In this document: positions 39,412 to 50,057 of the stretch, one piece after another
How positions within the stretch are numbered: the first letter of the stretch is position 1
Layout of the letters: each line of letters opens with the position of its first letter
Assembly: GCA_027068075.1 (NCBI GenBank)
Contig: JAMOUJ010000005.1
Coordinates: 248,001-312,000, forward strand
Direction: 5' to 3'
Source: Candidatus Aminicenantota bacterium
Lineage (GTDB): Bacteria > Acidobacteriota > Aminicenantia > S016-38
DNA: 64,000 nucleotides
Notes under the pieces: generated by a model
Databases searched by the model: none
The model's input: the letters and a program-made list of their open reading frames with translations, nothing else
Told to the model about the DNA's origin: nothing
Position numbers and translations under genes: made by a program

Positions 39412-39924
39412 ATGAAAAAACTTATTATCCCTTTGATGGCAGCACTCCTCTTAATCTCCTGCTCCCAGGGACCCTCTCCGGAGCAGGTTAAACAATGGGT
39501 CAAGGTGGTGGACATAAAAACCCAGTGGGTTCAGAAGGTAGGGCCGGATGTCAGGCCCTGGGAAGTGGTCTTCGTCCCCTCCATCAGGTTCCGCCTCCAG
39601 AATACCGGACCCCAACCGGTGAGGATCCTGTACTTTAACGCTGAATTTAAACTGGAAGACGAAGAAAAGGCCCTGGGCTACGATTACAGAGCCTATCCCA
39701 AAGGCGAACCCATCAAGCCCGGAGAAAAAAGCCCGGAGATCTTTCTTAGATCCCCTTACGGGTTCAGGGCTAAGAGCAGGGAAAGTTTTAAAAACAACCC
39801 CTACTGGAAGAAGGCACAGGTTAGGATCATAGTGGGAATACCGGGGGGTAAACTCGTGGACCTGGGCACCTATCCCATAGAAAATGTCCTGGAGGAACCC
39901 CTTGAAAAATCCCCTGAAAAGTGA
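39412..39924 (+). CDS. Lipoprotein, first of a tandem paralogous pair
   Basis: A 170-residue lipoprotein: MKKLIIPLMAALLLISCSQG, with lipidation at Cys17, then an Ig-like beta domain with PWEVVFVPSIRFRLQNTG and ILYFNAEF. A very strong ribosome site (AGGAGGTAAAAA) precedes the ATG. The following gene encodes the same domain, so the pair arose by tandem duplication. Family not recognised; the domain looks like those of proteins that transport or sense at the envelope, which is speculative. Confidence 0.75.
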   Translation: MKKLIIPLMAALLLISCSQGPSPEQVKQWVKVVDIKTQWVQKVGPDVRPWEVVFVPSIRFRLQNTGPQPVRILYFNAEFKLEDEEKALGYDYRAYPKGEPIKPGEKSPEIFLRSPYGFRAKSRESFKNNPYWKKAQVRIIVGIPGGKLVDLGTYPIENVLEEPLEKSPEK

Positions 39925-40438
39925 AACCGGATTCCTTGCCGTAGCGGTAGTTTTAGGTTTTTTGCTCGCTGGAATAATCTCCCTCTGGGAGCCCTCTGCC
40001 AAAGCCATAGCATCTTCTATAGAAATAGTTGATGTCAACTCCATGTGGGTTCCCTGGCACCCCCCGGCCAGGGCCATGGTAAAGCCCTGGGAGGTATTCA
40101 TAGCCCCCCGCATAGTTTTCAAGGTAAAAAACAAAGGGAGGAGAACCCTCAAGTATGTGGCCTTCAACGCGGTTTTCCTTCGCAAGAGGACGGAAATGAA
40201 ACTGGGGACCGCTTACCTGCTTACCCTCCGAGATGGACTTCCCCCGGGGAAAACCTCCCCTCCCATCGTTATGACCTCCGACGGGGGATATGCTGGCACA
40301 TCCCTCCAGAGGCTCAAGGACAACCCCTTCTGGGAACCCGTCATCTGCCGTCTTTATGTGGTAAAGGGTGAAAAAATAGTTTTACTGGGAACTTACGATA
40401 TCTCCAACGAAATAGTGGAGGAGGAAAAAAACCGCTGA
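39902..40438 (+). CDS. Membrane-anchored paralogue of the preceding lipoprotein
   Basis: A 178-residue protein with an N-terminal membrane anchor (FLAVAVVLGFLLAGIISLW) and the same domain as its neighbour: compare IEIVDVNSMWVP and KPWEVFIAPRIVFKVKNKG with the first copy. TTG at 39902 was chosen because GGAGG lies 6 nt upstream; an in-frame ATG at 39884 would add six residues. It overlaps the first copy by 23 nt, so the two are made together and may form a heteromer. Confidence 0.7.
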   Translation: MKNPLKSETGFLAVAVVLGFLLAGIISLWEPSAKAIASSIEIVDVNSMWVPWHPPARAMVKPWEVFIAPRIVFKVKNKGRRTLKYVAFNAVFLRKRTEMKLGTAYLLTLRDGLPPGKTSPPIVMTSDGGYAGTSLQRLKDNPFWEPVICRLYVVKGEKIVLLGTYDISNEIVEEEKNR

Positions 40439-40458: not shown

Positions 40459-41049
40459 GTGTTTAAACGCTTAATTTTTCTCCTCCTCTTTGCCATGGCG
40501 GCGGGCCACCCGCTTTTAATTCAGAACAAACCCCTTCCTTCTTCTGAAATAAACTCCTGCTCTTCATCTCCCTACAGCCCTCATGGCCTGAATAAGACTC
40601 CGGGAAAAAGGAAAGGATTTCGGACTCCGACCGAAAAAGGGAAGGTTGTCGGAAGGGTTATGGGATATGTATTCGTCCTCGTCCTTTCCCTGGTCTTTCT
40701 CCTATCCGGCATTCTCAAGGCAATCTCCCCCGGGGAATTCAAGGAAACTCTCTTGAGTTACGGGATGTTTCCTCCGTGGATGATAAAGATGGCCGTTATT
40801 TTCCTTCCCTGGGCGGAAATCCTCGCCGGAGCGGGTCTTCTGATTCCCTTCCTCCGGAGGCCTGCGGCCCTGGTCCTTGCCTTAATGAACATTGTGTTTA
40901 TCGGAATTTTGACGGTGGCCCTGAAGCGGGGGATACACGCCGCCTGTGGTTGCTTCGGAACCCTGAGCCGGGAAATTTCCTTCCGGGCCGTCCTCCGGGA
41001 CACGGCCTTGCTGGCCATGTCCCTTTACATTTATCTTCACTTCGCCTGA
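40459..41049 (+). CDS. MauE/DoxX-like membrane protein with signal-like N-terminus
   Basis: A 196-residue protein. The C-terminal 130 residues form four helices with the MauE/DoxX signature: LVFLLSGILKAISPGEFKET, LPWAEILAGAGLLIPFL and the redox-like ACGCFG. MauE-type proteins support disulfide or quinone chemistry in the membrane. The first 65 residues look like a signal peptide (FKRLIFLLLFAMAAGHPLL) and a Ser/Pro-rich linker. GTG at 40459 lies 5 nt after TATAAT; an ATG at 40660 would give only the MauE part and cannot be excluded. The last 13 nt overlap the convergent peptidase gene. Confidence 0.7.
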   Translation: MFKRLIFLLLFAMAAGHPLLIQNKPLPSSEINSCSSSPYSPHGLNKTPGKRKGFRTPTEKGKVVGRVMGYVFVLVLSLVFLLSGILKAISPGEFKETLLSYGMFPPWMIKMAVIFLPWAEILAGAGLLIPFLRRPAALVLALMNIVFIGILTVALKRGIHAACGCFGTLSREISFRAVLRDTALLAMSLYIYLHFA

Positions 41050-42386
41050 ATCCGGGCCATCTCCAGGGCTCCGCCTGAGAGGTGAAGAAGAACCTCCTCC
41101 GCCTCTTTAACCAGGCCCTTCTTCAACATTTCCCTTGCCCTTTCTTCCCCCTGGCGGGTAAGGCGGAAAAAGGCCGCCTCAAGCCTCTTCCACCTGTCCC
41201 CGTCCGCTCCTGGGTTGAGATATCGGAGGTCTGCATGGGTTCTAAAGGGATAATATAGGAGGTAAGGAATTTCCCTTCTGAGTTTCGGACTTATCAGGAA
41301 ATGCTCCCTTAAAATCCGGGAATGGGTCTCCCTCCACGGAGGAAATAGTCTTCGGGCGGCAAAGTATATGGGAATGTATGGGGAAGCGTCGGGGCGGGCC
41401 GGAGAAAGCCAAAGCAAAATATCCCCTGGACGGGTTCCCTTGAGGGAGAGAACGAAGGAATCCTTGGTGGTGTAATAGCAGATGGACCTTATGGAAAAGA
41501 GGGAGGGTATGTCCAGACCGGGTTGAGGCCTCTGCCGAAGAACCTCAAAAAGATTCTTAGCCGCCACCTTGTATCCAAGCCTTATGTAAGGTGGAAAGGG
41601 AGGTGCTCCTGGATAATCTTTACCGGTTAGGATTTTGTAGGCGCTCCGCCACCTGCCGGTGTTGTACTCCCGGTGGTAGTTGGCCGAGAAGGTCTGGGAA
41701 AAATGGAAACGGACCTCCCCTTTTTGAAGATAGCCGTTCTTCACGGCGAAACTCAAAAATCCCCTGGAGTGCATGATGTTTTCCCTGTCCCTGAGGTCAA
41801 CTTCTCCGGCGGTAAAATTATTGGGAAGAAGGGCTACGGCATCGTCGGGAACCCTCCAGGCCAGCCAGTGCTTTCCCCCGAGGATGTGCATAAGCCAGCC
41901 TTCCCGGGGATCCACAAAGGTCAGGGTCCTCCCCTCGGGATACCCGTATTTCTCTATGAGTTCACCGGCCTTTAAAACCGCCTCCCGGGCTGAGCGAGCC
42001 CTTTCCACCGCCAGTCGCCGGAGAAAATACCTGATCCCATCCCTGTCTCCGGGAACCCTGGACTGACAGGCATTGGAAACCACCGCCACCCCGTACGAAT
42101 TGACGAAGAAATCGGAAAAATACTTTTGCTTCATCTCCAGCCAGAGCATCTCAGGGTTTCCCCTCCACAGTTCCTGGGCTCCGTTGAGGAGTTTGAACCT
42201 TTCCAGCCCCTTCCTGGCGGGCACCCACCAGATTTTCAGGGGAGGGTCTCCCCTTTCATCCTCGTTGTGAGCCAACAGAACACCTCCGTTCCTGGAGGCC
42301 TCCCGCCCCACCACGATGGTGAAACACGGCATGGCCAGCCGGTAAAACAAAAGAAAACTCAGGAGGAATAGAATTCCTTTTTTCAT
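41037..42386 (-). CDS. C69/C45-type N-terminal-nucleophile hydrolase, secreted
   Basis: A 449-residue protein. A signal peptide ends in MPCFTIVVGREAS, so removal would expose Cys21 as an N-terminal nucleophile. GGVLLAHNEDERGD, SYGVAVVSNACQS and LPNNFTAGEVDL match dipeptidase A (C69) and related acyl-hydrolases. A periplasmic dipeptidase or amidase is likely; substrate unknown. Good ribosome site (GGGAGGTTG). It follows xerC by 4 nt. Confidence 0.8.
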   Translation of the reverse strand: MKKGILFLLSFLLFYRLAMPCFTIVVGREASRNGGVLLAHNEDERGDPPLKIWWVPARKGLERFKLLNGAQELWRGNPEMLWLEMKQKYFSDFFVNSYGVAVVSNACQSRVPGDRDGIRYFLRRLAVERARSAREAVLKAGELIEKYGYPEGRTLTFVDPREGWLMHILGGKHWLAWRVPDDAVALLPNNFTAGEVDLRDRENIMHSRGFLSFAVKNGYLQKGEVRFHFSQTFSANYHREYNTGRWRSAYKILTGKDYPGAPPFPPYIRLGYKVAAKNLFEVLRQRPQPGLDIPSLFSIRSICYYTTKDSFVLSLKGTRPGDILLWLSPARPDASPYIPIYFAARRLFPPWRETHSRILREHFLISPKLRREIPYLLYYPFRTHADLRYLNPGADGDRWKRLEAAFFRLTRQGEERAREMLKKGLVKEAEEVLLHLSGGALEMARIQAK

Positions 42387-42390
42387 TTTT

Positions 42391-43269
42391 TCAACCTCCC
42401 TTCACAACTTTATCGTATTCCTTTCTCAGGGTTTCAAGGTCCAGATGGGTGTATTTCTGGGTGGTGGCCAGGGAGGAATGCCCCAGAAGTTCCTGAATAG
42501 TTCTGACATCTGCCCCCATTTTCAACAGGTGAGTGGCGAAACTGTGCCTTATTTTGTGGGGAGAGATTTTTTTGGAGATGGAGGTCTTCATTATATAATT
42601 CTCCACCAGCCGCTGGACCCATCTCTTAGAAAGCCTTTTACCGAACTTGTTCTGAAACAGGGCGGGTTCCGAGGGGTTTTTTCTTACATCAAGATAGGCG
42701 GAAAGGGCCCGGGCAGCCGGCCTTCCAAAGGGAACCAACCTCTCCTTTCCCCCTTTTCCTTTAACCTTCAAGAACCTCTCCCTCAGATTCACATCCCACA
42801 CATCCAGGGCCACCAGTTCGGAAACCCTTATTCCCGTGGCGTAGAGAATCTCCAGGATGGCCCTGTCCCTCAGGGAGAAAAAATCTTCTCCCCGGGGGAC
42901 TTCCAGGAGTTCCTCCACCTCCTTCCGGGAAAGAATCACCGGAAGTTTCCTTCCCTTTCTGGGGTATTTCACCAGCCTGGCCGGGTTGATTTTTATTGCC
43001 TCCGTGGCCCGCAAATACTTGTACAGGGATTTCAGGGCGGCAAGTTTTCTTTCCACGGAAGCCTTGCTGTAACCCTCCCCCTCCAGCCACAGGAGAAAAT
43101 CGTAAATATCCGCCGGTTTAACCTCCAGAATGTCTTTCCCCTTCACCGAGGCCAGGAAAAACCTGAACTGGGATAAGTCCTTTTTGTAGTTTTTTACGGT
43201 ATTTCCGGAGGCATGCCTTTCCCTCTCCAGAAAGAGCAAAAACTCCCTGGCCGGATCCCATATTTTCAT
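42391..43269 (-). CDS. xerC: Tyrosine recombinase XerC/XerD
   Basis: A 292-residue site-specific recombinase for chromosome dimer resolution at dif. N-terminal SAM-like domain (FLLFLERERHASGNTVKNY), then catalytic residues: Arg in ATGIRVSELV, Lys in KGKGGKERLVPF, H-x-x-R in SPHKIRHSFATHLL, His in LLGHSSL and nucleophile Tyr in TTQKYTHLD. Length is typical of XerC/D rather than of phage integrases, and no attachment site or mobile-element genes are near. It overlaps the M16-like gene by 4 nt. Confidence 0.93.
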   Translation of the reverse strand: MKIWDPAREFLLFLERERHASGNTVKNYKKDLSQFRFFLASVKGKDILEVKPADIYDFLLWLEGEGYSKASVERKLAALKSLYKYLRATEAIKINPARLVKYPRKGRKLPVILSRKEVEELLEVPRGEDFFSLRDRAILEILYATGIRVSELVALDVWDVNLRERFLKVKGKGGKERLVPFGRPAARALSAYLDVRKNPSEPALFQNKFGKRLSKRWVQRLVENYIMKTSISKKISPHKIRHSFATHLLKMGADVRTIQELLGHSSLATTQKYTHLDLETLRKEYDKVVKGG

Positions 43270-44468
43270 TTAGAAACCTGATAAAGAAGTTTTCCCCTGG
43301 AATCAAAAACGCCTATGGAGGCGAATTTCTTTACCAGGCGAGGCAGAAGGGCCTCCCTGGCCCCCACCAACACCGATATGTTCCTGGTGGGATAATCGGA
43401 AAGGGAGGAATTCACTTCTTGAAGAGAGCATTCCTTTTCTTCCATTAAAAAGGCCTCCCTTTCCCTTCGGAATCCAGGCCAGGGGAGTGAATCCGTGTAG
43501 GCCTTCTTTCCCATGAACTGCCTTCTGATCCTATCAAATTCCCTTTTATCCATTTTTATTCTCAGTTTTCCGGCAATGGCCCGGTTCCCCGTGGAGACGA
43601 TACCGAAAACCTCCTCGTCGGATAGCGAAGATACCTTTATCCATCCTATGCTGACATTTCTGCCTTTCTTTATGCCCCAACTAACCTTGCCGTAGGGATA
43701 AAAAACCGAACGCATAAGCCCCTGGGGCCCCATGGCCAGGGAGGCCAGAAAATACCGTATGGCGCAGAGGTCTTCCGCATCTATCACCTTGAAAAACCAC
43801 ATAACGAAAGGCCGTGGTGAAGGAAGGAGACCCACCTTAAGGGGAGTTCTGTCCGGAGGTTCCGTCAGGGGCGGAAGAAAGGAGGGCCTCTTTTCAAGCG
43901 TCATTCTCTTCTTTATCAGATGTTTAAGAAAACTCCCCTCCACCACTATTTTTATCCTCCGGGGATCAAAGCATTTTTCCTTAAAAGCCCTCAAATCGCT
44001 GGTGGAAATTCTGTTGAAATCCCCTGGCTCAGGAAAGGGTTTCGCATAATGGGAAAGGGGATAGAAAAGAAAAATTCCGAAGTCCTGGGGGGAAGGCCTG
44101 TAGAGCCTCAAGGCCAGAAGAGAGCGGGCTTCCACCAGACTGCGGCTTTCAAAATTCCTGTCCTTCACCAGGGACGAGGCCACTCCTATGGCCGTTTCCC
44201 AGAAGTTCTTTAATACGATCACCCGGAAGGAGGAAAAATCGGGGCCTATCTCTGCCTCTACCCTGGCCCCTGAGGAAAAAAGGGCATCCTTCCACCGGAC
44301 TTCCTGGTATGTAAAAACTTCCTCCAGCAAACCCGCTTTATCCTCGTCAGCCCTTCCACAGGGCGAAACTACGGAAATGGAAAGCAAAGGATTTTTCTCG
44401 GGATAAAATTTGATAATCTGGGGGGAAAGGGTCCAGACGAGAAAGAGCATCAAGAAAAATTTCCTCAT
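43266..44468 (-). CDS. M16-fold pseudopeptidase B (no zinc motif)
   Basis: A 400-residue secreted protein with signal (FFLMLFLVWTLSPQI). It keeps the M16 layout of two related halves (LLSISVVSPCGRADEDKAGL, then FYPLSHYAKPFPEPGDFNRI and FDPRRIKIVVEGS) but has no HxxEH. In M16 pairs one subunit usually lacks zinc and helps bind substrate; this fits that role. The partner just upstream also lacks the motif (see findings). Starts 4 nt inside the upstream gene. Confidence 0.72.
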   Translation of the reverse strand: MRKFFLMLFLVWTLSPQIIKFYPEKNPLLSISVVSPCGRADEDKAGLLEEVFTYQEVRWKDALFSSGARVEAEIGPDFSSFRVIVLKNFWETAIGVASSLVKDRNFESRSLVEARSLLALRLYRPSPQDFGIFLFYPLSHYAKPFPEPGDFNRISTSDLRAFKEKCFDPRRIKIVVEGSFLKHLIKKRMTLEKRPSFLPPLTEPPDRTPLKVGLLPSPRPFVMWFFKVIDAEDLCAIRYFLASLAMGPQGLMRSVFYPYGKVSWGIKKGRNVSIGWIKVSSLSDEEVFGIVSTGNRAIAGKLRIKMDKREFDRIRRQFMGKKAYTDSLPWPGFRREREAFLMEEKECSLQEVNSSLSDYPTRNISVLVGAREALLPRLVKKFASIGVFDSRGKLLYQVSK

Positions 44469-45709
44469 GGATTCCCCGGCAATAAAATCAGCCTTACCCG
44501 GTTAAAGGGATAGAAAACCTTTCGTACGGTTTCCCAGAAGGAGGAAGGGGAAAAATTTGAAACTCCCCCGAGAACCTCGCCCTCGGTACATCGGAAAACG
44601 AGATTGTATTTTCCAAGCACCTCTCCCCATAGGGAAGGGTCTATTTCTTGTTCGCGTATACTCCTTATCAAGGATAATTTGAGCCCGGTGAGAACCGACT
44701 TGCCCGGAGGTGAAGTTTTCAAGCGCGTAAAAATCTTCTGAAGGGAAGATTCCCAGGGGGCCAGGCTCTTCCCCTTTACCACCACGCAGAGGGAGGAGGA
44801 ATAGATCAGATGATGAACCTTCACCTCAAAATCACCCCGGAGCCCCCTCTTAACCTTCTCCCCGGCCAGGGCCCTTTGAAGGTAAAGCCGCACGAGTTCC
44901 AGGAAAACCCTTCTGGTGCAGGAGGGGGATGATACCCTGTAACACAAGGCGTAAACCCTATGATTCAGCCCCCTGACCATCAGTTTCCTGTCCACCGCCC
45001 TGGTGGGAAACTCTATTTTTTCCGGAAATATAACCGGACGGGATTTTATAGGGGAAAACATTTTGAGAATCAAATTCCTCTCCTTGGGCCTCATAGCCCC
45101 TATAATGACCATCAGGGCTGTGCGGGGCTGGAAGAATTTCCGGTGAAAATTCTTAACATGTTCCAGGGGGATTTTTTGAAGTTCCTCCGGGGTTCCCAGG
45201 GGAAAGTCGGCATAGGGCGAATCCGAATAAAGGAAGGACTTGACGATCTTGTCAATTCTTGCATCCTCGTCCATCAACATCCCTCCCACTTCCTGGCCGA
45301 GCCTCTTCCTCTCCCTTGCAAAAAAATCCTCGGAAATATTTAGGGACTTCATCCTTTCGTGTTCATACCAGAGGGCCAGGGGAAACTCCCCCCGGGGAAA
45401 ATAACTTTTGAAAACCACGAAGTCCCTATCTATCTTCACCTCAAGGTTTCCCCCCACCCTTTCCAGAAAAAAAATCTGCTCCCAGGGAGCGCTCCGCCGC
45501 GTTCCCGTAAGACTCATCATGGCGGTGAGATACGAAAGCCCCCTTTCTCCTTCAGGGTCAAAGGAGGAACCCGCCCTGTAGAAAACCGTGAGGAAAACCG
45601 AAGGGATGTTCCGGTTTATGAGTATTATCTTCATGCCATTGGGTAGGCGAAAGGTCTCCAGGGCAAGGAGGGAGAAACCGAACAGAAGAAGCAGAAGAAA
45701 ACGCTTCAT
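44465..45709 (-). CDS. M16-fold pseudopeptidase A (HxxEH lost)
   Basis: A 414-residue secreted protein (RFLLLLLFGFSLLALET signal). The M16 start is clear (FRLPNGMKIILINRNIPSVF, FYRAGSSFDPEGERG) and YADFPLGTPEELQKIPLEHV with FFQPRTALMVIIGA matches the second region. The zinc motif, normally H-x-x-E-H before the GT, reads SYLTAMMSLTGT, so both His and the Glu are gone. It should not be a zinc protease. It overlaps its paralogue by 4 nt; together they could be a binding or chaperone-like pair. Confidence 0.78.
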   Translation of the reverse strand: MKRFLLLLLFGFSLLALETFRLPNGMKIILINRNIPSVFLTVFYRAGSSFDPEGERGLSYLTAMMSLTGTRRSAPWEQIFFLERVGGNLEVKIDRDFVVFKSYFPRGEFPLALWYEHERMKSLNISEDFFARERKRLGQEVGGMLMDEDARIDKIVKSFLYSDSPYADFPLGTPEELQKIPLEHVKNFHRKFFQPRTALMVIIGAMRPKERNLILKMFSPIKSRPVIFPEKIEFPTRAVDRKLMVRGLNHRVYALCYRVSSPSCTRRVFLELVRLYLQRALAGEKVKRGLRGDFEVKVHHLIYSSSLCVVVKGKSLAPWESSLQKIFTRLKTSPPGKSVLTGLKLSLIRSIREQEIDPSLWGEVLGKYNLVFRCTEGEVLGGVSNFSPSSFWETVRKVFYPFNRVRLILLPGNP

Positions 45710-45730: not shown

Positions 45731-46387
45731 TTAAGAAACATAAAGGCTTTTGGAGAGGAAATAGTGAAGGGGCCCCCGGTTTATCCCAAGGTCCCTGGCA
45801 ATGTCTTCTGGTCTTTCTCCGAAGAGAACCCTGATAATGGCTCCCTGGGTGAAGTTCCTGAACCCCGAATCCTCCTTCAGGTCTTTAAGGGTAAAGGACT
45901 TAACCTTAACCGGGGTTTTCAAAAGTTCCCTTACCCTGGACGAAGCCCTTTTCTCCGAAGATGCGGCTTCCTTGGGAGAGATATCCGCACCGAAGAGGAG
46001 GATTATACCTATTTCCCTCTCTCCCTTTTCCTTCCTTTCAAAACTCCATATGGACACCAGGGAATCGCTCTCCTTTTGAGAAAGGGCTCCGGTGACCGCC
46101 CTGGCTATCTCCTGGTAGAGTTTCCTCTCCCCCTCAAAAAGGGGTTCCAGGAGTTCCTTGTATAGGGGATGCTCCCGGTTCAGGGAAAAACTATGCCTCC
46201 TCCGGGACCCGTTCTTATAAATAATTTTAAGAGATTCCAATTCCTGTAAGGCTAACTGACAGGACCTTGGATTTATTTCTCCCAGCAGGCTTATCTTCCT
46301 CCCGGAGATTCCGTCTCCTGCGAAGTAAATGGTCCTTAAAACATCAATTTTTGCATGGGTAGAAAACAATAAATTTGCCAGTTTCAT
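45731..46387 (-). CDS. Winged-helix protein with degenerate nucleotidyltransferase-like domain
   Basis: A 218-residue protein. Residues 1-75 look like a winged helix (AKIDVLRTIYFAGDGISGRK, then NPRSCQLALQELESLKII). Residues about 110-160 look like the DNA-linked nucleotidyltransferase fold, but the expected GS-x10-D-x-D is not present (VSIWSFERKEKGEREIGIIL). A second small helical region ends it (DIARDLGINRGPLHYFL). ATG 46387 was chosen because it begins the winged helix and lies 11 nt after the tRNA-Ser 3' end; longer frames would include tRNA sequence. Probably a transcription regulator; target unknown. Confidence 0.65.
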   Translation of the reverse strand: MKLANLLFSTHAKIDVLRTIYFAGDGISGRKISLLGEINPRSCQLALQELESLKIIYKNGSRRRHSFSLNREHPLYKELLEPLFEGERKLYQEIARAVTGALSQKESDSLVSIWSFERKEKGEREIGIILLFGADISPKEAASSEKRASSRVRELLKTPVKVKSFTLKDLKEDSGFRNFTQGAIIRVLFGERPEDIARDLGINRGPLHYFLSKSLYVS

Positions 46388-46398
46388 CTTATAAAGAA

Positions 46399-46491
<93 letters not shown>

Positions 46492-49227: not shown

Positions 49228-49304
49228 CGGGACGTGGCGCAGCCTGGAAGCGCACACGCTTGGGGTGCGTGGGGTCGGCGGTTCAAATCCGCTCGTCCCG
49301 ACCA
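49228..49304 (+). tRNA. tRNA-Pro (GGG)
   Basis: 77 nt with CCA encoded. Acceptor CGGGACG/CGTCCCG, anticodon arm CACGC-TTGGGGT-GCGTG (anticodon GGG), T arm GGCGG-TTCAAAT-CCGCT, discriminator A. surE starts 12 nt later. Confidence 0.95.
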
Positions 49305-49316
49305 TTTTTTTATTTT

Positions 49317-50057
49317 ATGAGGATTCTTCTTACCAACGACGACGGTTACCTATCCGCCGGAATTTCCCTTCTGCGCTCGGCCCTGAGGGAGAAGGGACAC
49401 AGGGTTCTGGTGGTAGCCCCCGACAAGGAGCGCTCCGCCGTAAGCAAGGCCCTCACCCTCCACAGACCCCTGAGGATGAGAAAAATAGGGGAAGATTTTT
49501 ACATAACCGATGGAACCCCCAACGATTGCATTTACCTGGCCCTGGGGGTTTTGGAGGAGGGTTATCCCGATCTGGTGGTCTCTGGCATAAACCTTGGAGC
49601 CAATCTGGGAGACGATGTAATATACTCCGGCACCGTGGGGGCAGCCATCCTGGCCACCCATTTCAGGATCCCATCCATCGCCTTTTCCTTTGCTGGAAAG
49701 GAGGTGGAAAGTTTGTCCCCCGTGGCGGAAAAGGCGGCGGAACTGGTGGACCTCCTGAGCCGGAAACCGCTCCCTGATGTGACCCTTAACATAAATTTTC
49801 CCTCCCCTCCCTGGAAGGGAATCAGGGTTACCAAGATGGGCCGGAAAAAATACAGGCCGGAGATAATCACCCGGGAAGACCCCAGGGGGGAAAAATACTA
49901 CTGGATAGGGGTGGGAAGCCCCGTGGCCACCCCGGACAGCGAAACGGATATAAAGGCCGTGGGGGAGGGCTTCATCTCCGTAACCCCCATACACTCGGAC
50001 ATGACCAGTTACCAGCACCTGGAGGAATTGAGGTCCATATTTCATGAAATTTCTTAA
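49317..50057 (+). CDS. surE: 5'/3'-nucleotidase SurE
   Basis: A 246-residue metal-dependent nucleotidase/survival protein. Active-site markers: ILLTNDDGYLSAGI (metal Asp pair), APDKERSAVSKALTL (Ser), TDGTPNDCIYLAL and VSGINLGANLGDDVIYSGTV (Asn). ATG at 49317 begins the fold and lies 12 nt after tRNA-Pro with no ribosome site; the longer frame would read tRNA sequence. It overlaps the next gene by 14 nt. Confidence 0.95.
   Translation: MRILLTNDDGYLSAGISLLRSALREKGHRVLVVAPDKERSAVSKALTLHRPLRMRKIGEDFYITDGTPNDCIYLALGVLEEGYPDLVVSGINLGANLGDDVIYSGTVGAAILATHFRIPSIAFSFAGKEVESLSPVAEKAAELVDLLSRKPLPDVTLNINFPSPPWKGIRVTKMGRKKYRPEIITREDPRGEKYYWIGVGSPVATPDSETDIKAVGEGFISVTPIHSDMTSYQHLEELRSIFHEIS

Follow-up and report, generated by a model that had tools for sequence, protein, structure and literature searches.

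A Bacterial Pair of M16 Peptidase-Like Proteins from the Aminicenantia with No Zinc Site in Either Subunit

In bacterial M16B heterodimers such as PA0371-PA0372, one subunit is active and the other inactive, and YfmF/YfmH is a bacterial M16 pair encoded by two genes. In an active M16B heterodimer, one subunit carries the zinc site (the HxxEH motif and a distal glutamate) and its partner carries an arginine/tyrosine (R/Y) pair. According to the available text of PMC12731061, most M16 enzymes have an active site that is completed by the R/Y pair, the exceptions being the mitochondrial processing peptidase (MPP) and the core proteins of the bc1 complex. The same text describes M16B homodimers with two HXXEH sites, and it reports that yeast core protein I lacks HXXEH, that bovine core protein I has YFVEH, and that a structural role is assumed for the core proteins, their function not being clearly defined. 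In bacterial M16 proteins, a strand with the sequence NAxT forms part of the binding cavity (PMC9291397, in the portion available). Here we describe two adjacent genes, A and B, that encode an M16-type pair with no zinc site in either member. They lie in a stretch of 64,000 nucleotides (the window; positions 248,001 to 312,000 of contig JAMOUJ010000005.1) of a Candidatus Aminicenantes genome of 1.9 Mb in nine contigs. The labels G, C, L, and f used below are our own for genomes, contigs, loci, and families; the genome that holds the window is G000.

A and B are both predicted to have the fold of an M16 subunit. A matched the Pfam profile Peptidase_M16 (PF00675; E = 1.1e-7, 32.3 bits, cut-off 22.3), and its C-terminal M16 domain scored 17.5 bits, below the Pfam cut-off of 23. 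B had no match in Pfam or NCBIfam, and a profile of seven B orthologues found nothing convincing among the Protein Data Bank (PDB) sequences (best E = 0.68). The AlphaFold2 (AF2) model of A (predicted local distance difference test, pLDDT, 72; predicted template modeling score, pTM, 0.60) had PA0372 (4nnz) as its best Foldseek match (E = 7.2e-26, probability 1.00, template modeling score, TM, 0.55), and the model of B (pLDDT 64.5, pTM 0.46) aligned over its own length to M16 subunits (3ami; E = 3.7e-14, probability 1.00, TM 0.34). We rejected membership of YfmF/YfmH, which is associated with modification of elongation factor P (EF-P), because A scored 16.9 and 13.8 bits against the two NCBIfam models, far below their cut-offs of 285 and 250.

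When A was aligned with active M16 subunits, Y60, A63, M64, and E140 stood at the H, E, H, and E positions of the zinc site. The original prediction, which proposed that both members of the pair had lost the zinc motif, placed the site in A at SYLTA; the motif is indeed absent, and the aligned site is YLTAM (Y60 to M64), one residue on. In B, the motif loop is shortened, the aligned residues are G, E, and E, and there is no histidine there. Full-length orthologues of A and B were found in all seven genomes of the family (G000 and six others), in agreement with the earlier description of both genes as full length, and the motif is absent in all seven, where the site reads Y, A/G/S, M/R. Throughout these genomes, both proteins are free of HxxEH, HExxH, and HxxH, and we likewise detected no hidden or inverted zinc motif. 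Only one histidine is invariant across the family in A (H300), and none is in B.

We also compared the residues of the substrate strand and of the partner, calling first subunits active or dead by the presence or absence of H..EH. On the NAxT strand, first subunits of the window family retained N in five of seven cases and A and T in none (0/7 each); dead first subunits of families f3, f4, and f6–f11 retained N in 36, A in 41, and T in 36 of 43. R and Y were both present in all 24 partners of active subunits, in 21 of all 42 dead-pair partners, and in none of the seven window-family partners, among which R was found once (G005) and Y never. In the partners of f3, f4, and f6–f11, R was present in 30/30 and Y in 20/30. 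Judged from these alignments, which the original prediction had itself suggested, A and B appear to lack the features of an active M16B heterodimer, that is, HxxEH with the distal glutamate in one subunit and the R/Y pair in the other.

Table 1. Positions of the two M16-type genes, their site residues, and their neighbors in the window
Feature	Position	Strand	Basis
ORF (open reading frame) A, first M16 subunit, 414 amino acids (aa), without zinc site	44465..45709	-	Pfam PF00675, AF2, Foldseek
Codons 60-64 of A, Y-L-T-A-M instead of H-x-x-E-H	45518..45532	-	Alignment with active subunits
Codons 86-97 of A, substrate strand GGNLEVKIDRDF; GG..NAxT..D in active subunits	45419..45454	-	Alignment
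Codon 140 of A, third zinc-ligand position: E; Q in 3/7 orthologues	45290..45292	-	Alignment
ORF B, second M16 subunit, 400 aa, without zinc motif, without R/Y pair	43266..44468	-	Foldseek
Codons 256-264 of B, R/Y stretch of active pairs (approximate placing); K and a gap in MAFFT alignment	43677..43703	-	
Xer-type tyrosine recombinase gene (xer)	42391..43269	-	PF00589, E 1.8e-47
Conserved upstream neighbor of A, helix-turn-helix-like (by eye)	45731..46387	-	ATG 46387 probable start

A search for active M16 proteins elsewhere in the genome, another check proposed at the outset, found two ordinary pairs (on C3 and C5), each with HMLEH in one subunit and a motif-free partner, and a single-chain M16 protein of 797 aa with HFLEH (L048:13594-15987, minus strand) on a very long branch. 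This chain is shorter than the usual fused M16 enzymes. The genome thus retains the makings of normal M16 proteolysis. The combination of an active with an inactive subunit, which had been taken as the normal bacterial pattern, was found wherever the first subunit had HxxEH: the partner was free of the motif in 24 of 24 such pairs (23 from the class and one from Fibrobacteres). It was also found in pairs from the same phylum outside the class, for which the partner served as the selection criterion, without regard to the motif. A profile built from dead-pair partners matched 396 genomes across the phylum, of which 47 belong to the class, and from the best matches listed we chose 40 places outside the class, mostly one per genome and skipping the majority of ORFs with roughly 900 aa and above. 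Both members were present at 38 of these places, always with HLFEH in the first subunit and no HxxEH in the partner (38/38 each), and two places had only one M16 gene. As a general rule the pattern is qualified by the M16B homodimers with two sites (PMC12731061, available text). The 26 active rows of our alignment (the 23 class first subunits, the one from Fibrobacteres, the 797-aa chain, and the long ORF L119, for which no partner was read) have H, E, and H in 26/26, partly by construction, and the distal glutamate in 26/26, which is not by construction. Among 19 other M16 places read, 18 had HxxEH and one was dead (L127 in G060). At one locus of G090 (L225) the partner carries HPYEH, and at the end of L053 there is a second M16 gene with HLLEH, which was left out of the trees.

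The loss is not an oddity of a single genome, an interpretation excluded by its presence in all seven family genomes and by its spread through the class. Counting G000, we read motif-less first subunits of the A type in 93 out of 100 genomes from the class, three of them as partial reads (G068, G054, and G033). For 63 of the 93, absence of the motif was part of the sorting criterion; the other 30 were sorted by their scores against dead-type and active-type profiles, and none has HxxEH. No dead first subunit was read in G007, G080, or G093 (where the place read was active), in G067 (partner only), or in G023, G074, and G078, for which no place was fetched. The distant class matches of A were mostly a motif-less first subunit with a motif-less partner, and the two dead genes were adjacent at every locus where both were read. 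Among 60 aligned dead first subunits, the first histidine position has Y in 42, F in 8, H in 3, N in 3, S in 2, L in 1, and Q in 1; the glutamate position has E in 28, Q in 19, and other residues in 13; and the second histidine position has N in 38, H in 5, and other residues in 17, with both histidines in none. Neither this class-wide reach of the double loss nor the active M16 proteins of the same genome had been foreseen by the original prediction.

Trees bear on the origin of the pair. With the motif columns removed, one branch, with support of 100/99, separated 27 dead from 41 active first subunits in a tree from which two long active rows had been dropped along with the 797-aa chain, and the same split was recovered at 100/99 with the 21 dead rows outside f2 and f5. 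Dead-pair partners also fell on one side of a branch, with support of 99 (42 rows) and 100 (23 rows) in quick trees and 99/100 for the 18 rows outside f2, f5, and f6, and they nest among the partners of the outside HLFEH pairs. The main trees contain at most 27 of the 60 dead rows and 18 of the 38 outside pairs (one per family), and 17 of 83 partner rows, those shorter than 330 aa, were dropped from the partner alignment. The trees do not include L029–L031 (near-copies, counted as dead) or L034, L036, L040, L046, L047, and L064 (re-read longer); L063, L065, and L066, other loci of G008, G022, and G032 at which the first subunit is cut before the motif, were not scored. The simplest reading of this sequence evidence, although not a proof, is a single early event: close to the root of the class, catalysis most likely disappeared from an active pair, which was then kept.

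The pair of the window family might instead not be orthologous to the class-wide dead pair and might have lost its site independently. Its gene order (hisS, the upstream gene, A, B, xer) differs from the metK/ahcY, A, B, FTCD-like arrangement found elsewhere, its site residues (Y, A/G/S, M/R) differ from the prevailing Y, E/Q, N, its branches are long, and the reach of the B profile is weak. Against this stand the single branches that unite dead first subunits and dead-pair partners in the reduced trees described above, and no second dead pair was found in G000 at the search thresholds, although the Pfam profiles among these searches also miss B. We regard independent loss as unlikely.

We favor a single loss, and we propose that the two proteins associate as an M16-type heterodimer that is secreted (to the envelope or periplasm) and has no cutting activity. 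The one loss of the zinc site, in an ordinary active pair with HLFEH in one subunit and an R/Y partner, would date to the last common ancestor of the class or earlier, and the clamshell would have been retained for enclosing or binding a polypeptide. We assign a probability of roughly 0.6 to this explanation as a whole, namely a heterodimer of the envelope that, without catalysis, captures polypeptides or scaffolds them and that stems from a single loss at the base of the class. Its component claims of heterodimer formation, envelope location, and a binding or scaffold role are what we infer from gene arrangement and residue patterns. Both reading frames are intact, adjacent, and co-directional and share an ATGA overlap, and both proteins begin with a hydrophobic, signal-peptide-like stretch, judged by eye and not with a predictor; to that extent the earlier description of the pair as secreted and co-translated is borne out. 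As the NAxT strand and the partner arginine are kept in most families, peptide capture without cleavage (by a chaperone, carrier, or receptor) is the likeliest function there. In the window family, where NAxT, the tyrosine, and mostly the arginine are gone, the pair more likely has a structural role as a platform within a protein complex, resembling the bc1 core proteins. A wider proposal, which we advance only tentatively, is that in this class an envelope M16 protease has become a heterodimer that is obligate and non-catalytic, serving most families as a peptide-capturing clamshell and the window family purely as a scaffold; it would be an undescribed envelope chaperone, receptor, or platform with an origin separate from that of the bc1 cores.

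Several observations weigh against this explanation. Loss of R/Y does not prove inactivity, since active MPP lacks R/Y (PMC12731061, available text). Of the 60 dead first subunits, 28 have glutamate at the catalytic position and 30 have it at the third ligand position, so that weak metal binding is possible elsewhere in the class. Confidence in the structural models is modest, and in A it is lowest near the motif and just beyond. The B profile reached 22 of 100 class genomes, and the 15 matches outside the family were weak or partial. When two long active rows (L087 and L117) are kept in the tree, the dead rows require two changes; in a quick tree of 86 rows, the split between dead and active had a support of only 1; and the branches leading to the window family are long (1.97 for A and 2.53 for B). 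Finally, the available part of PMC9291397 states that bacterial homologues of MPP do not act as heterodimers, a statement that is contradicted by the crystal structures of bacterial pairs.

A and B might alternatively act as a regulator or decoy that shares substrates with the genome's active M16 enzymes, or pairs with these enzymes, and tunes them. Such enzymes are present (the pairs on C3 and C5 and the 797-aa chain), and pseudo-enzymes sometimes regulate active cousins (PMC11266112, in the portion available). However, the dead pair of G000 (C5, 292 kb) is not adjacent to the active pairs (C5, 552 kb, and C3), the dead subunits remain neighbors of each other, and the substrate features are mostly gone in the window family; we judge this role improbable. 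It is still more improbable that the pair hydrolyzes peptides through a non-standard site or with another metal. The glutamates retained in dead first subunits would fit such an activity, as would the report that bovine core protein I, with YFVEH, is weakly active after detergent treatment (PMC12731061, available text), but the residues at the window-family site, the near absence of invariant histidines, the lack of all three motifs in the seven genomes, and the finding of both histidines in none of the 60 rows argue against it.

The preferred explanation, a retained non-catalytic pair, also agrees with the pattern of selection. The ratio of nonsynonymous to synonymous substitution rates (dN/dS; Nei-Gojobori method, own script) was 0.136 for A and 0.153 for B between G000 and G003, and 0.112 and 0.050 between G001 and G002. 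Other dead-pair genes gave 0.08-0.23, hisS and xer 0.05-0.07, and one active pair 0.06-0.07; several dS values exceed 1, so these figures are rough. The dead pair is under purifying selection and is mostly constrained somewhat less than housekeeping genes. A decaying relic of a protease operon, suggested by the lost catalytic and substrate residues and by a family dN/dS of 0.05-0.15 against 0.05-0.07 for hisS and xer, is the least probable reading of all, and we ruled out decay, in keeping with the original prediction, on the basis of this selection, the full length of both genes in 7/7 family genomes, and their presence through the class.

The neighboring genes provided no clue to function: hisS, the upstream gene, xer, and the C69 peptidase share no theme, and the neighborhood differs elsewhere in the class. 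The overlap of B with xer is likewise ATGA; xer adjoins the pair in six of seven family genomes and is absent in G004. The protein encoded upstream of A has no match in Pfam or NCBIfam and adjoins A in 7/7 family genomes. A tRNA-Ser gene (46399-46491) overlaps the GTG start listed for its ORF (45731-46426), so the true start is probably the ATG given in Table 1. In f4, f7, f8, f10, f11, and one f9 locus, gpsA and a tetratricopeptide repeat (TPR) lipoprotein gene lie upstream, ahcY and/or metK lie on the other strand, and A and B are followed by an FTCD-like gene (for example, L078, L079, L081, and L082; names assigned by eye). Among 59 genomes tabulated, FTCD was seen in 25, ahcY in 23, the TPR protein in 20, metK in 16, and gpsA in 14, with names again assigned by eye and many stretches too short to show these genes. 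Dead-pair partners of other families (e.g., L079:2323-3765) have the N-terminal consensus SQERFRRxPPxPEPL, which is absent from B. B itself has cysteine codons 37 (44358-44360, SPCGRAD) and 166 (43971-43973, KCF.P) that are invariant in all seven family orthologues and might form a disulphide in a secreted protein. Genes for C69-family peptidases lie beside both the dead pair (41037-42386) and the active pair on C3 (L048:1760-3364, by eye). Two overlapping neighbor genes (39412-39924 and 39884-40438) have no Pfam match; their counterparts in G001 and G002 cluster together, and they are probably a tandem duplicate. The TTG start listed for a surE-like ORF (49260-50057; named by eye) falls inside a tRNA-Pro gene (49228-49304), and the real start lies further in.

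A free-standing bacterial pair with active relatives in its phylum and active M16 proteins in the same cells could serve as a testbed for the non-catalytic use of the M16 clamshell, and such genes should not be annotated as proteases in uncultured organisms. A limited search of paper titles and abstract openings turned up no description of bacterial M16 pairs in which both members have lost the site, and this supports novelty only weakly; M16 pairs with two inactive members are already known in the bc1 cores, and a bacterial example is perhaps undescribed. The best structural matches of A and B are the bacterial M16B heterodimers of the same fold (PA0371-PA0372, the pair of Sphingomonas sp. 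A1, and TTHA1264/TTHA1265). The chain names of 3amj denote an active and an inactive subunit, whereas A and B have a zinc site in neither. A pair of a different kind, CspC:CspA of Clostridioides difficile, is subtilisin-like and not M16. It combines two soluble pseudoproteases in one heterodimer and offers a model for a receptor role (PMC12880746, available text), and it serves as an analogy only. The bc1 core proteins I and II, according to the available text of PMC12731061, resemble A and B in being an M16 pair that is usually non-catalytic, without a complete HxxEH and without R/Y, and the tyrosine of YFVEH in bovine core protein I is a replacement like that in A. The profile of dead first subunits nevertheless scored higher against PA0372 than against the core protein I chains. 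The bc1 cores differ in being eukaryotic and part of a respiratory complex, whereas A and B are bacterial and secreted-like, and bc1 genes were not looked for; under the wider, tentative proposal above, A and B would be a bacterial counterpart of the bc1 core proteins that arose separately.

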